DNA from: Alternaria dauci
Lineage: Eukaryota > Ascomycota > Dothideomycetes > Pleosporales > Pleosporaceae
DNA: 64,000 nucleotides
Assembly (NCBI RefSeq): GCF_042100115.1
Contig: NC_091281.1
Location: 682,001-746,000, forward strand
Direction: 5' to 3'
Shown: in pieces, positions 26,070 through 30,656 of the stretch
Layout of the letters: each line of letters begins with the position of its first letter
Numbering within the stretch: the stretch's first letter is position 1
The notes under the pieces: model-generated
What the model was told of the DNA's origin: nothing
Database searches by the model: none
The model's input: the letters and a program-made list of their open reading frames with translations, nothing else
Position numbers and translations under genes: made by a program

Positions 26070-27867
26070 TCATACAGTCTCAGTCTTCTCAGTCTCGCCC
26101 TTTTCCTTCTTGGCGATGTTCTCAATAGCGGCAAGAGCATCGCCCTTGGCTTGCGCGGCTACGACGTTCTCGACGTCTTGAGCGAGGTGTGAGCTGCCCT
26201 TCTTGGTCTGCCAAGCATGTGGGCCATCTTTGCTGAACAAGACCTCAATCTCTTCGAGAGTCTTTCCACAAGTCTCAGGGTATGTGAAGAAGAACTGAAT
26301 GGCAGCCAGAACACAAAGTACTCCGAAGACTACGAAAAGTCCCCATTTGATGTTGATAAAGGCGGGCGGAATGAAGAGTCCAATGGCGAAATTAAATAGC
26401 CAGTTTCCGATAGCAGCAATGCCCATTCCGGAGGCGCGGGTCTCTAGTGACCACACCTCAGCGGCATACACCCAGCAAATGGGCGCAAGTGTAAGCGCAT
26501 AGATCTGATGTGAGGTAAGTATGGTCTCTACTACATGCGAAAAGAAATTGCTTACGATAATCAACAGATATGAGAACGCGATGACTGTGTACGCAGGCGA
26601 TCCGGTAACCTCCATGACGACGTTTTTGTCGCCACCGACACCATCGGGCACGTAGGTATAATGGGCTCCCAAGACTCCACCAACAACAAAATGGCAAAAG
26701 CCCATCGTGATTGCGCCCCAGACTAAGAGTGTTCTGCGACCAATCTTGTCGACAAAGAAGAACATGATGGACGAGAAGACGATGAACAAGGCGTACTGTA
26801 CGCCAGATGAGATGAGCTTGGTGTTGCCTTGGAGACCTGCCATGGCGAAGATGTATACGACTGCAGGGATGAAGAGACGAAGTCAGTGGATATCTTATAT
26901 GCATTTCGTACATGTCGAACTTACCGTAGTAGGTCATCACATTGGCTCCCGAAAGCTGTTGCCATGCTTGGACAGAAAACCCGGCAAGAGTTCGCTTCCA
27001 CATGCCGTTCACAACGAATTTTCTCCATCCCTGGGGAGCTAGACGCTCAGCAGTAAGGGCGGTTACAATTTCTTCGTATTCAGCGATAACGTAAGGGTCT
27101 TCGATGTTGCCGTCGGCTTGAATGGCGGCAAGAATACGGATCGCGTCTTCTGTGCGGTCGACCTTGGCGAGCCATCGGGGAGACTCAGGAAGGAACGGCA
27201 GGCCAATCATGAACATGACGCAAGGAACGAACTGGATTCCCCAAGCGGTGCGGAACGAGGCGGTGGCGCCAGGGATAAACGTACAACCATAACCGATGAA
27301 GTACCTGCAAAGTATGAGTCAAGCTGCTTTCCTCGTGTTTGGTTCACTTACATAATAAGGATACCCCATTCAATAGCTAACTGCTGAATAATGATGATGG
27401 CACCACGCTGTGAGTGTTTCGAGATCTCGGCAAGGTATACAGGCACCTGAGACGATGTGATACCGACCGTTACTCCGTTCAAAACACGGCCTGCAATAAG
27501 CATGCCGCGGCCAGTGCAAGCGACCTGAATAGCGGTACCAACAAGCCACCAGAGACAGGCGAACATGAGAGCATCGCGACGACCGAACTTGTCGGAAATG
27601 GGACCAGCCATAGCACTACCAACTACTGACCCAGCAGCAAGGGCAGAACCAATGGCTCCCTGAACAACACCAGATGGGTTATCGAAGTAGTCACTATTGC
27701 AAATCAGTCAGTTTACTAACAAATTCGACCGTCGTGACGTACATGTACTGGTCTGATGGAATGATGGCGCTCATCGATGAGATGTCAAACCCGAAGAGCA
27801 TACCTCCCATCGTGGCAACAATTGCCAAGAAGTATACATTGTAAATCTTGGGGAATCTCTCAAACAT
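26070..27867 (-). CDS. MFS sugar transporter (hexose/H+ type)
   Basis: Plasma-membrane monosaccharide transporter of the sugar porter family, 528 residues and about 12 helices. complement(join(26070..26504, 26556..26860, 26925..27304, 27352..27693, 27743..27867)). The four introns are 47-64 bp, and the 51-bp one at 26505-26555 is frame-neutral. Motifs in order: GMLFGFDISSMS in helix 1, DKFGRRDAL (motif A), PESPRWLAK after helix 6, AWQQLSGANVMTYY in helix 7, DKIGRRTLL, and PETCGKTLEEIE after helix 12. The C-terminal tail is Lys/Glu-rich. Start chosen at the ATG giving MFERFPKIYNVYFLA, which leads straight into helix 1. Specificity (glucose, xylose, quinate) cannot be told from the sequence. 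Confidence 0.9.
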
Positions 27868-29787
27868 CTTGACTTGAACCTCTCCAGGACCTCGGGTGGA
27901 TGCAAAGATGGCAAGCTATTGACCTATCGATCCACGTTCGCGGGGAAAGTCGAATATAAAGCTTCAAGCAGTCGGCACATCATGCCGTTCCGCTCAACGT
28001 GACGAACCTACTTGAGTAGCCGTCCCCACTGAAGTCCTTGCTCCGCATGAGGCTCCCTATACCGACACACTGATCAGCCAGGTAAAATGGTTATAATCGG
28101 ATTTGCCGTTATGAGTATAGCGGCCGCACGCCGAAAAGCCTGCCGTCTTGAACATCGGAGAGAAATGAGGTCGAGTCAGTGTCGGACCCAAGTTGATTCG
28201 TGGAAAATCATGAGTCTGGAGATGCTGGGGTGTTGGACTGGAGGTGGAGACAGGGGCGCTTGAGGTCGGAGGGATGTGGAGATCGCCTCACCCGCGTTGT
28301 GCATGTGTCGATGTCGTCAGTGGCGCCCCAGCCGAATTGGCGGCTCTTTTGCGGGGCTTTCTGGGATCCGATGGCACATTGCAAGGCTGCTGAAATGCGA
28401 CGACGTTACATGTGAACTGGAATTATTTCCCGATGTGATATGGTTTCCGCGTGTCGCTGGGGGATTGGGCAGGAGTGCGGCGGAATAGTGTGAATAAACA
28501 GGGCGCGATCATTCCTCTACTTGGCAACATCGACTCCAATCTTCCGATTTCTATCCTTGGCATCGCGATGTTGTTATTGGTTTGCAGCTCCGCACGCATG
28601 GGATTGCATTGTCTGTGGTTGATTCAGAGTGAAAAGCTTGATGTGTAGGAAGTTGAGTTGACAAAGTCAATTCTGTCTGCTCGTTACAGGCATATCTGTA
28701 GTTCGCGCAACTGCGATTCAGAAAACCCCTAGTCATGATCGGGGTTACGGGGAACGTTGCATTCGCTCATCGATGATTAATCCTGCCTTTCCTCGTGTTC
28801 GGGCTAGATAACTGCATGTGGAACCTTGAACCATCACATTGTGGGAACGTCGAAGCGCAATGACCACAAGTGTCAGGCCACTCGACGCACCGACGCGTAT
28901 AGATCCTACCTAGGTAATTCTGATATATGGCTATGTTTTGCAGAACTTGGCCGATACAAAACCAAGTTCCCAAGCAGCCGGCAGCACAAATTACCTAGGT
29001 AGGTCAAGAAAAGCTTTGCGTATAATACAAGAACTTTAATAGTGAACCTCGATATGATCTGGTGCAACTGTACCAAACCACTAAAATCCGTTCAGAGATT
29101 GATCATGACAAGCACTGCCCATGTTGCTGGATCCGATACCTACATTCATGACATAAGATAGATCAGTCTTTCGTGTGCGTGGCAGATGCACGTGAAGGCG
29201 TACAAGCCGCGTGAAGTTGTGATGCGTAAAATAGTCTGCGTCAATGGCTTTGGACTTGGAGATATTTGTCGCATGATCGCGCCATCGCTCACACGAGAGT
29301 TTTACCAATTGATTTTGTTTCTTCACACGATTTGATAGAACCTGGCTTCATGGAAGAATGCTCGCGCAAAAGGAAGAATCGCAAATACGGCGGAGATTGT
29401 GTGCATCGAGAACTGTCGTTGACACAACCTTGGAAACCTCATGTTTCCCCAATCTGTATCACTAGAGTTTCCACCAACAAATGGTATGCCAGGCATGCCT
29501 GGAATCTGGGTTTCGATGCCGTTGGACAAGAGCGTTCAATATTCAGGTAAAAGTTCCGGTGTTCGAGTTCGGGTTTGCCGCCCCCTGAACCGCCCTTGTC
29601 TGCGCGGCTAAGTTCGGCCACCATGCAAGCCAGAACCTTGGAAGTCCACGATTTTTGTGGGGTTGTCGGGACCTGTCGTAGAAACAGGCTTAGGATAATT
29701 ATGAGGCTTTACATTGCCATATGCTCAAAATTCGTGAAGTACTTTATATATCATACGATGACTCATTTCACCATCAAAACAACAGTT
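27868..29787. other. gene-poor flank between sugar transporter and tRNA-Pro
   Basis: Holds the transporter promoter at its left end. Short ORFs (60-95 codons) carry no recognisable features. Two TACCTAGGTA palindromes lie at 28907-28916 and 28992-29001. The right half becomes AT-richer toward the tRNA. Confidence 0.5.
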
Positions 29788-29796
29788 GGTCCTGTG

Positions 29797-29847
29797 GTAA
29801 GTTCATACCAATCCCTCACAGTCATCAGTAAATCTAACAAGACACAG
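29797..29847 (+). other. spliceosomal-intron-like insertion 1 in tRNA-Pro
   Basis: 51 bp beginning GTAAGTTC and ending GACACAG, with a CTAAC branch site 13-17 nt before the end. Length, donor, branch site and acceptor match the mRNA introns elsewhere in this window. It interrupts the tRNA between nucleotides 9 and 10. Confidence 0.75.
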
Positions 29848-29858
29848 GTCTAGTGGTA

Positions 29859-29914
29859 GTAAGTTACCCTATCTGCAGCCGGCACCTACAGTTTATCATC
29901 TAACATATCATCAG
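29859..29914 (+). other. spliceosomal-intron-like insertion 2 in tRNA-Pro
   Basis: 56 bp beginning GTAAGTTAC and ending ATCATCAG with an ATCTAAC branch site. It interrupts the D-loop. Like insertion 1 it starts GTAAGTT and contains ATCTAACA near its 3' end, but the interior is otherwise different. Confidence 0.75.
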
Positions 29915-29934
29915 TGATTCTCGCTTAGGGTACA

Positions 29935-29974
29935 CCCGAGCACAGCTTGCGAGAGGCCCCGCGTTCGAGTCGCG
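29935..29974 (+). repeat. left 40-bp direct repeat (tRNA-Pro 3' half)
   Basis: Runs from the tRNA intron through the T-arm (cccgagcacagcttgcgag...gtcgcg). It matches 34437-34476 with two mismatches (c/g and a/t). Confidence 0.85.
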
Positions 29975-29983
29975 GCAGGACCC

Positions 29984-30656
29984 CAATCTTTTGCGCTCTT
30001 AGCGTTCATGATGCACCCACAAAGTTCCTCAACTGTCTGTGACTATGAGTGAAAGATTTTAATTTTTCAAGAAACCGAACTCAAGCTCATCTAACTTGAG
30101 AAATGTCTAGGAAAGATTCCCTTTGTCTCATCTAACTTTTTTGGGTCAGCCGAATACCTGCGTTTTTCCTCAAGAACGCGGCTTGTATAATACCTTGTAG
30201 TCGTAGTAATCAGGTAGACGCAGGCCAATTGTTCAATACGGAACTTTCGTTATAACTGTTTAGGTAGGTATTTACAAGTCAAGCCTGCTCATGATGTACC
30301 CCGGCTTGAGTGCAATATGGAATACTCTTAACAGCTCCATCCATCGTTCGATAGATCCCGATAGCTTGAGTCCCATTATACCTGCTATCTATTATACTAA
30401 TACAAGCAACACTTTCAATTAGACTCTAGAAGTAGCTATTAGGGTGCTTGTTGAGGGACCTTTCAGGGTGGTCGCGTCGGGAAGAACTGCGGGAGCATTC
30501 AAAACACTCTTTCACTTCACCTCAACCAACACCAGACGAAGAAGCGAAAAGGAACCTTGGCAGGGTCCAAGCACAAGCGCACAATCGCGTAGAAATATAC
30601 CATTTGGACCATCCCCTCCACTACACCACAATCGCGCCCACCGCAGATACCTAGGT
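29984..30656. other. left non-coding part of the element
   Basis: AT-rich. Contains the Pol III terminator of the tRNA, a short inverted repeat CTCAAG/CTTGAG at 30080-30100, and the 12-mer CTCATCTAACTT twice (30086-30097 and 30127-30138). The frame of the degenerate gene is open from about 30444, so its 5' leader lies here. A TACCTAGGTA palindrome at 30648-30657 overlaps the candidate ATG. Confidence 0.45.

Follow-up and report, generated by a model that had tools for sequence, protein, structure and literature searches.

Introduction

Introns of nuclear tRNA genes are taken to lie after position 37 and to be processed by the tRNA endonuclease. The closest precedent for the arrangement described in this study is the U6 gene of fission yeast. 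Excerpts of PMC10484740 describe an mRNA-type intron in the U6 snRNA gene of S. pombe, and cite by title a study (Frendewey 1990) according to which Schizosaccharomyces U6 introns match the tRNA box B consensus. Among small structured RNAs, frequent interruption by an intron is known only for U3 and U6 (PMC5832005), and the abstract of that paper terms U3 a polymerase III gene. The U6 genes of Schizosaccharomyces pombe and other fungi resemble the genes considered here in that they are Pol III genes for a small structured RNA that carry a spliceosomal intron. They differ in that their product is not a tRNA, whereas here 28 introns are found in 19 tRNA genes. The U3 snoRNA of fungi, another small structured RNA, likewise carries ordinary spliceosomal introns, but U3 is not a tRNA and has no accompanying classical tRNA intron.

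Several introns per tRNA gene, located in the D and T arms and splitting boxes A and B, are known from archaea, Cyanidioschyzon merolae and nucleomorphs (PMC4090602, PMC3978253). According to those papers, the archaeal and Cyanidioschyzon introns have the bulge-helix-bulge form and are cut by the endonuclease. The tRNAscan-SE 2.0 paper treats eukaryotic tRNA genes as limited to one intron (PMC8450103), and the excerpt of PMC11782384 contains no mention of a spliceosomal intron in tRNA genes. A search of open-licence PMC papers, preprints excluded, turned up no paper describing tRNA genes of the nucleus with spliceosomal introns. The introns themselves resemble ordinary U2 introns, with U6 as a mechanistic precedent; as a type of tRNA gene, no precedent was found in the literature searched.

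In the present genome, both full U6 genes found are without an intron; the other U6 matches are one truncated copy and a weak match (L079) below the family cut-off. At L077/L078 (G000:C1:5437718-5438105), a full U6 gene has next to it a truncated 3′ half of U6 that points the other way.

Structure of the interrupted tRNA-Pro(AGG) gene

The window, that is the whole stretch of 64,000 nt analysed here, corresponds to G000:C10:682001-746000, within a 34.9-Mb genome of ten contigs (named C1 to C10). The segment at 29788-29983 of the window consists, in order, of an exon, a 51-nt insertion, an 11-nt exon, a 56-nt insertion, an exon, a 17-nt classical intron and an exon, all on the + strand. The exons were assigned from the sequence and by comparison of the spliced copies, as was the classical intron, and the branch-site motifs from the sequence and the intron survey described below. 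Exon 1 (29788..29796) comprises the 5′ strand of the acceptor stem and positions 8-9. It is followed, between tRNA positions 9 and 10, by spliceosomal-type intron 1 (29797..29847; 51 nt, GTAAGT...CAG), with a branch-site motif, CTAAC, at 29834..29838. Exon 2 (29848..29858) is an 11-nt micro-exon in the D arm, and intron 2, also of spliceosomal type (29859..29914; 56 nt, GTAAGT...CAG), separates positions 21 and 22 of the D loop and has CTAAC at 29900..29904. Exon 3 (29915..29930) holds the anticodon AGG, and the ordinary tRNA intron (29931..29947; 17 nt) follows position 37. Exon 4 (29948..29983) provides the 3′ strand of the anticodon stem, the T arm, the 3′ strand of the acceptor stem and the discriminator C. 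Read directly, both insertions start with GTAAGTT, contain TCTAACA and end with CAG.

When all three introns were removed, ARAGORN recognized a 72-nt tRNA-Pro(agg) with a full cloverleaf and a 7-bp acceptor stem. The sequence-only reading had proposed precisely these deletions of 51, 56 and 17 nt and had taken the two insertions for spliceosomal-type introns beside a normal tRNA intron; its boundaries proved exact to the base, and both the locus and its spliced product support that interpretation. Introns 1 and 2, at 9/10 and 21/22 rather than 37/38, are not placed as classical tRNA introns are. ARAGORN returned nothing for the unspliced window or for the region of the locus (L011), and a search of the window at Rfam gathering scores was empty, as would be expected since the gene is interrupted. 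On the sequence evidence, the locus is very probably a working nuclear tRNA-Pro(AGG) gene with two U2-type spliceosomal introns in addition to a classical tRNA intron.

Interrupted tRNA genes elsewhere in the genome

Candidate genes were collected by several scans. The initial tRNA scan of the genome gave at least 58 matches (63 of 931 candidates were scored), some of them from a mitochondrial-type cluster on C3. A pattern combining the T arm with a TTTTTGC terminator gave 76 rows, compared with 9 in the reversed control; 41 of these rows (40 loci) were fetched, 26 were already in hand, and 9 were excluded as not resembling a T arm. A pattern for introns in the T loop had 15 matches, compared with 14 in its reversed control; eight are tRNA genes, four failed the splice test and three were judged by eye. 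One further pattern scan (111 matches versus 53 in the control) supplied, among the matches listed, 14 of the 15 regions of one fetched set. A further CTAAY pattern scan gave 16 rows versus 6; three places are interrupted tRNA genes and, two places excluded, the rest are intact Ile genes or belong to the mitochondrial cluster. In that cluster (L028-L031, G000:C3:3344209-3399162), which lies close to the end of nuclear contig C3, mitochondrial-type tRNA genes are densely grouped, owing either to a join made in assembly or to the insertion of a large piece of mitochondrial DNA.

In the splice test, 35 candidate tRNA regions were examined and 19 yielded a tRNA on removal of introns, a count that includes the doubtful L137, which was excluded from the tally of genes. 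The same test yielded no tRNA in 382 control chunks of the window (915 spliced variants, with one or two GT/GC..YTRAY..AG introns removed). It is apparent from this comparison that the spliced tRNAs are not due to chance. Where several boundaries gave a tRNA (e.g. L041, L111), the one with canonical signals was taken. By fetching and splicing, a total of 28 spliceosomal-type introns were found in 19 tRNA genes, and ARAGORN recognized a tRNA in all 19 of the spliced genes. The window gene, the one case visible to the sequence-only reading, is thus part of a larger phenomenon. The anticodons of Ser(GCT) on C9, Arg(TCG) and the intact Glu gene L088 were assigned by eye, because ARAGORN misplaces their classical intron. 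Nineteen is to be read as at least 19, as the census leaves out His, Phe, Pro(TGG), Thr(TGT), Leu(CAA), Arg(ACG) and much of Val. The intact genes used for comparison (n=73) are ARAGORN calls less duplicates and mitochondrial loci, and include some miscalled anticodons.

Besides the four Pro(AGG) genes, the 15 interrupted genes encode Gln, Ser, Lys, Arg, Glu, Gly, Ile and Pro-CGG tRNAs, with introns in the D arm, the anticodon or the T arm. All copies found are interrupted for Pro(AGG) (four), Gln(CTG) (three), Ser(GCT) (two) and, with one copy each, Pro(CGG), Gln(TTG), Ser(CGA), Lys(TTT) and Arg(TCG). Thus, 14 of the 19 genes belong to isoacceptors for which no intact copy was found, the direct search having covered Pro(AGG) and Gln(CTG) only. 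Interrupted and intact copies both occur in the case of Arg(CCT), with the interrupted ones being (one of two copies found), Gly(GCC) (one of six), Glu(CTC) (two of five) and Ile(AAT) (one of five).

The intron sites, in our own cloverleaf numbering, are 9/10, 10/11, 11/12, 13/14, 14/15, 21/22, 34/35, 52/53, 53/54 and 57/58. Pro-AGG genes are interrupted at 9/10 or 10/11 and at 21/22, Pro-CGG at 34/35 (within the anticodon), Gln at 11/12 and 57/58, Ser-GCT at 13/14, Lys at 14/15 and 57/58, Gly and Glu at 57/58, Ser-CGA and both Arg genes at 53/54, and Ile at 52/53.

Several loci deserve separate mention. In Pro(CGG) (L097, G000:C3:1306212-1306728), the classical tRNA intron follows three bases after the intron that splits the anticodon at 34/35. 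One Ser(GCT) gene (L112, G000:C10:482673-483191) has a GC-AG intron that starts with GCATGT, compared with GTACGA in its paralogue. Downstream of one Gln(CTG) gene (L108, G000:C8:593369-593883) there is a second copy of the 3′ end of the gene (CGTTCGATTCCGGGCAAGATC). L114 (G000:C1:5872674-5873203) contains a stretch similar to an interrupted Gln gene (TAGTGTACGTCTTC), with a TATA and T runs, the splicing of which yields no tRNA; it is possibly degenerate, a relic or another Pol III RNA. L135 (C1:347180-347700) and L137 (C2:1392885-1393400) have tRNA-like ends and insertions of about 100 nt in the anticodon arm without clear spliceosomal signals. The arrangement patterns of the Pro and T-loop genes had no matches in prokaryote and viral contigs which, being non-fungal, are silent on the distribution of such genes.

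Origin of the introns

In the Gly and Glu genes, a recent gain or loss of introns can be read cleanly from copies that are identical except that some bear the intron and others are empty. The spliced Glu(CTC) gene on C5 matches its intact paralogue L109 at 99 of 99 positions, and the spliced Gly(GCC) gene on C2 matches intact L102 at 88 of 88. The T-loop introns of Gly(GCC) and Glu(CTC) seem to be related to one another (z values of 7.0 and 5.6 versus shuffles), values to be read against the z of 5.0 otherwise reached by intron pairs from different tRNAs, and shared splicing signals inflate z. A 20-base core of the Gly/Glu intron has exact matches in just three tRNA genes; ten others, at three mismatches, are at the control level.

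Such data might be taken to indicate a recent invasion of the tRNA genes by introner-like mobile introns, with one or a few families multiplying, a scenario that overlaps with the explanation preferred below. Introner-like elements of Dothideomycetes are a described source of intron gain in filamentous ascomycetes (excerpt of PMC4457414), and the kinship of the Gly and Glu introns, their shared 20-base pattern and the empty sites in most of the Gly and Glu copies found all speak for it. Introners would be expected in many similar genomic copies, however, and in this respect the present introns differ: for those searched (the window introns and the Gly/Glu intron) no repeated family was seen outside tRNA genes, and the window introns matched nothing similar in the genome except their own gene and the Pro paralogue on C5. 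The sequence-only reading had offered introner-like insertion as one possible origin; a genome-wide introner family was rejected on this ground for the introns searched. Gene conversion through the common CCCGGGTTCG/ATTCCCGG T arm would, moreover, account for Gly and Glu. A recent introner-like invasion is therefore considered unlikely.

Transfer of introns between tRNA genes is likely in its own right. In the case of Gly and Glu, it may have occurred by gene conversion via the shared T arm or by reverse splicing into a tRNA and copying back. The Pro and Gln introns look older, as their positions are common to all of the copies found and to both Gln isoacceptors.

Transcription signals

The window gene is preceded by a TATA element (TATATAT, 29745..29751, +) 30 nt upstream of CATCAA, a spacing like that at ordinary tRNA genes, and by a CCATCAA leader motif (29771..29777, +) that also precedes many ordinary tRNA genes here and probably marks the region of Pol III initiation. 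Since exon 1 must be present in the RNA, the start site is likely to be upstream of that exon, where the TATA and CATCAA elements place it. An intact box B, CGTTCGAGTCG, is situated at 29962..29972 (+), and the TTTT of CTTTTGC, at 29989..29992 (+), resembles a Pol III terminator, TTTTTGC being common after ordinary tRNA genes. The run is four T long in this copy, so short that it counts against the explanation preferred below. The consensus for box A is TRGYNNARNGG. The sequence-only reading had taken insertion 1 to split this element, which Pol III needs intact. The insertion does not destroy it, since the terminal AG of intron 1 and exon 2 together rebuild a box A-like sequence, AGGTCTAGTGG (29846..29856, +), that fits seven of the eight specified positions, the first being the misfit.

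At many ordinary tRNA genes of the genome, ATAT or TATA precedes CATCAA or CATCGAA by about 30 nt, and CTTTTTGC stands at the end. Ten of the 18 interrupted genes have a TATA located 24-36 nt before ATCRA (shuffled mean 0.36), as do 34 of the 73 intact ones (shuffled mean 1.42). The remaining eight interrupted genes fail this strict test, which counts against the preferred explanation, and for two of them the upstream region is short. The distance from TATA to the motif is 30 in the Pro copies on C10, C5 and C6; the copy on C4 has CGCCAAG in place of CATCAA, again an unfavourable observation, with the TATA spacing kept as judged by eye.

Box B was examined in relation to the position of the introns. 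T-stem introns leave it whole at the 3′ junction (scores of 15.6-16.2 in three). Eight T-loop introns split it, the score at the 5′ junction being −2.7 in seven genes and 2.0 in Lys. Inside seven of these eight introns there is a substitute box B (scores of 7.6-14.3, shuffle p of 0.005 or less), and a score of 7 or more is reached by only 1 of 19 other introns (7.7, p 0.013). The difference is significant (Fisher p 7e-5), in a calculation for which the threshold of 7 was chosen after the scores had been seen and in which related introns are counted singly, with about four independent origins. Three of the genes with a split box B were first met via the substitute; all eight are in the set from the T-loop-intron pattern, which demands no box B. 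The eighth gene, Gln(TTG), has an intronic score of 2.0 (shuffle p 0.07) and a box B located 13 nt after the tRNA and ahead of the terminator, where none of the 73 intact genes has one within 45 nt. The Gln(CTG) gene on C8 has an additional box B downstream, past a T run. A run of four or more T occurs in 1 of 27 introns.

The genes thus have the features of Pol III genes of type 2, namely a box B, a T-run terminator and upstream elements as at other tRNA genes, and the most telling evidence that the RNAs of the interrupted genes would be made by TFIIIC and Pol III comes from the substitute box B elements. Transcription by Pol II, whether within a longer RNA or as a dedicated capped transcript from which the tRNA is processed after removal of spliceosomal introns, would provide the usual substrate of the spliceosome, and Pol II also uses TATA boxes. 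The TATA-CATCAA leader and T-run terminator, shared with ordinary tRNA genes, the replacement of a split box B and the near-absence of T runs from the introns all argue against it, and we consider it improbable. The suggestion in the sequence-only reading that the tRNA is embedded in a Pol II transcript has accordingly become less likely for the window gene, with its TATA, CATCAA and TTTTGC.

Two further observations were made in this context. An element similar to GTTCGAATCGCGTTGTTACTTCATC, followed by a T run and resembling box B, recurs at L140, L148 and other loci, ten or more in total, distributed over several contigs. L085 and L113 are Met tRNA genes, as called by ARAGORN, with partial TTGGTGTAGT repeats upstream.

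Splicing signals of the introns

The main set consists of 27 introns in 18 genes; the 28th is in an Arg gene. All 27 are 48-59 nt in length. Their 5′ ends are GT in 26 and GC in one, and their 3′ ends are YAG in all 27, as in U2-type introns. The branch motif is CTAAC in 22 and CTAAT in five, with the branch A 9-13 nt from the end of the intron. In all four Pro(AGG) copies, the introns are 50-56 nt long and have GTAnnT, CTAAC and AG. CTAAY was a search criterion for those genes known solely from the T-loop-intron and further CTAAY scans, and the splice test required YTRAY; with these motifs serving as filters, it is chiefly in the Pro(AGG) genes that the branch motif provides independent support.

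The introns may be compared with those of a sugar-transporter gene in the window (26070-27867, − strand), which has four mRNA introns of 47-64 nt, supported by the restored reading frame. These start with GTACGT, GTAAGT or GTAAGC and end with YAG, and have branch sites like CTGAC or CTTAC. The length of the tRNA-gene introns is thus mRNA-like, insofar as four introns of one gene can indicate. The match of the two insertions to the mRNA introns of the window, as put forward from the sequence only, is borne out in length and ends; CTAAC is not shared by the mRNA introns. Strings of the form GTANG..CTAAY..YAG occur nine times on the two strands of the window, versus a shuffled mean of 3.9 and maximum of 8, and two of the nine are the Pro insertions.

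An alternative in which the tRNA splicing endonuclease removes these introns, as it does the non-canonical ones of archaea, red algae and nucleomorphs, and in which GT, CTAAC and AG are incidental, might be envisaged in view of the D- and T-arm tRNA introns of nucleomorphs and Cyanidioschyzon (PMC4090602). None of the 27 introns, however, fits a strict test for the bulge-helix-bulge motif (a 4-bp helix between two 3-nt bulges, with flanking helices), and that reading was rejected. The 4-bp helix alone is present in one of them, and random positions show it at a rate of 5%. The GT/GC-YAG ends, CTAAY and a tight branch distance are present in all 27, and most interrupted genes also keep the classical intron after position 37, the new introns with their spliceosomal signals lying elsewhere. 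Endonucleolytic removal of the new introns is thus highly improbable.

Selection on the spliced tRNA

An exact search of the genome for the anticodon arm found Pro(AGG) in three places, and a 71-nt proline tRNA query added a fourth, on C4, missed by the pattern because its classical intron is longer. Both spliceosomal-type introns are present at the same places in all four copies found (C10, C5, C6 and C4), the boundary of intron 1 being offset by one base in the copies on C6 and C4. Exon 2 is 11 nt long, or 10 nt in two copies. The genes on C10 and C5 encode one 72-nt tRNA and those on C6 and C4 another. Members of a pair agree at 72/72 positions and genes of different pairs at 68/72; the four mismatches amount to two compensatory base-pair changes in the acceptor stem, at 5:68 (C-G/T-A) and 7:66 (G-C/A-T). 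Intron 1 is identical at 44-45 of 51 positions within pairs and at 24-28 of 51 between pairs; the 5′ splice site, CTAAC and AG of the Pro introns have been kept although the rest has diverged. As the strands of the acceptor stem flank both introns on opposite sides, the selected molecule would be the spliced one. The compensatory changes, together with introns that have diverged outside their splicing signals, argue that the Pro(AGG) copies are working genes rather than relics.

No intact Pro(AGG) copy was found in a genome search the sensitivity of which reached 35-nt halves. The sequence-only reading had called for a count of intact tRNA-Pro(AGG) genes, regarding many intact copies elsewhere as a mark of a dead copy; such copies were sought, and none of the four found is intact. 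A contiguous Gln(CTG) query likewise had no match in the genome. An empty answer by itself shows little, but 35-nt Pro halves were detected in a search of the same kind, which argues against an intact Gln(CTG) copy.

That the interrupted genes are dead copies, unexpressed pseudogenes carrying insertions, as the possibly degenerate L114 might suggest and as a reverse-spliced relic would imply, is the least probable explanation of all, contradicted as it is by both introns in all four Pro copies, the compensatory changes, the conserved splice signals, the blank Gln(CTG) search, and Pro(AGG), Gln(CTG), Gln(TTG) and Ser(GCT) copies that are all interrupted yet splice to complete tRNAs.

Proposed pathway

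The best explanation of these results, and one that we hold with considerable confidence, is that the interrupted genes give rise to Pol III transcripts that would need the spliceosome and then the tRNA endonuclease. In the window gene, Pol III would start near CATCAA, 30 nt below the TATA box, assisted by TFIIIC on boxes A and B, and would halt at the T run. In genes whose box B is split by an intron, the substitute in the intron or just downstream would sustain TFIIIC binding. Excision of introns 1 and 2 by the spliceosome would be a precondition for folding of the acceptor stem and D arm. The ends would subsequently be trimmed, and the intron of the anticodon loop removed, by RNase P, RNase Z and the tRNA endonuclease and ligase. 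Two points count against this pathway: Pol III transcripts would be uncapped, and exon 2, at 11 nt (10 nt in two copies) very short, would be lost if the first 5′ splice site were joined to the last 3′ one.

Implications

Two unrelated splicing systems seem to be required for the tRNA genes described here, and the RNA on which the spliceosome would act has to fold exactly afterwards. The results suggest a wide-scale settling of spliceosomal introns in Pol III genes, the price of which is a split box B and the repair an intronic one. As the interrupted genes were missed by ARAGORN and Rfam, fungal genomes that are seemingly poor in Gln or Pro tRNA genes may hide such genes likewise. It is probable, to judge from the copies found, that the Pro-AGG and Gln-CTG and, with less certainty, the Gln-TTG, Ser-GCT, Ser-CGA, Lys-TTT, Pro-CGG and Arg-TCG tRNAs are made solely via the action of the spliceosome on a Pol III precursor, the introns having taken over box B, so that translation capacity would be tied to the spliceosome. 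The cell apparently depends on its mRNA-splicing machine for some essential tRNAs.
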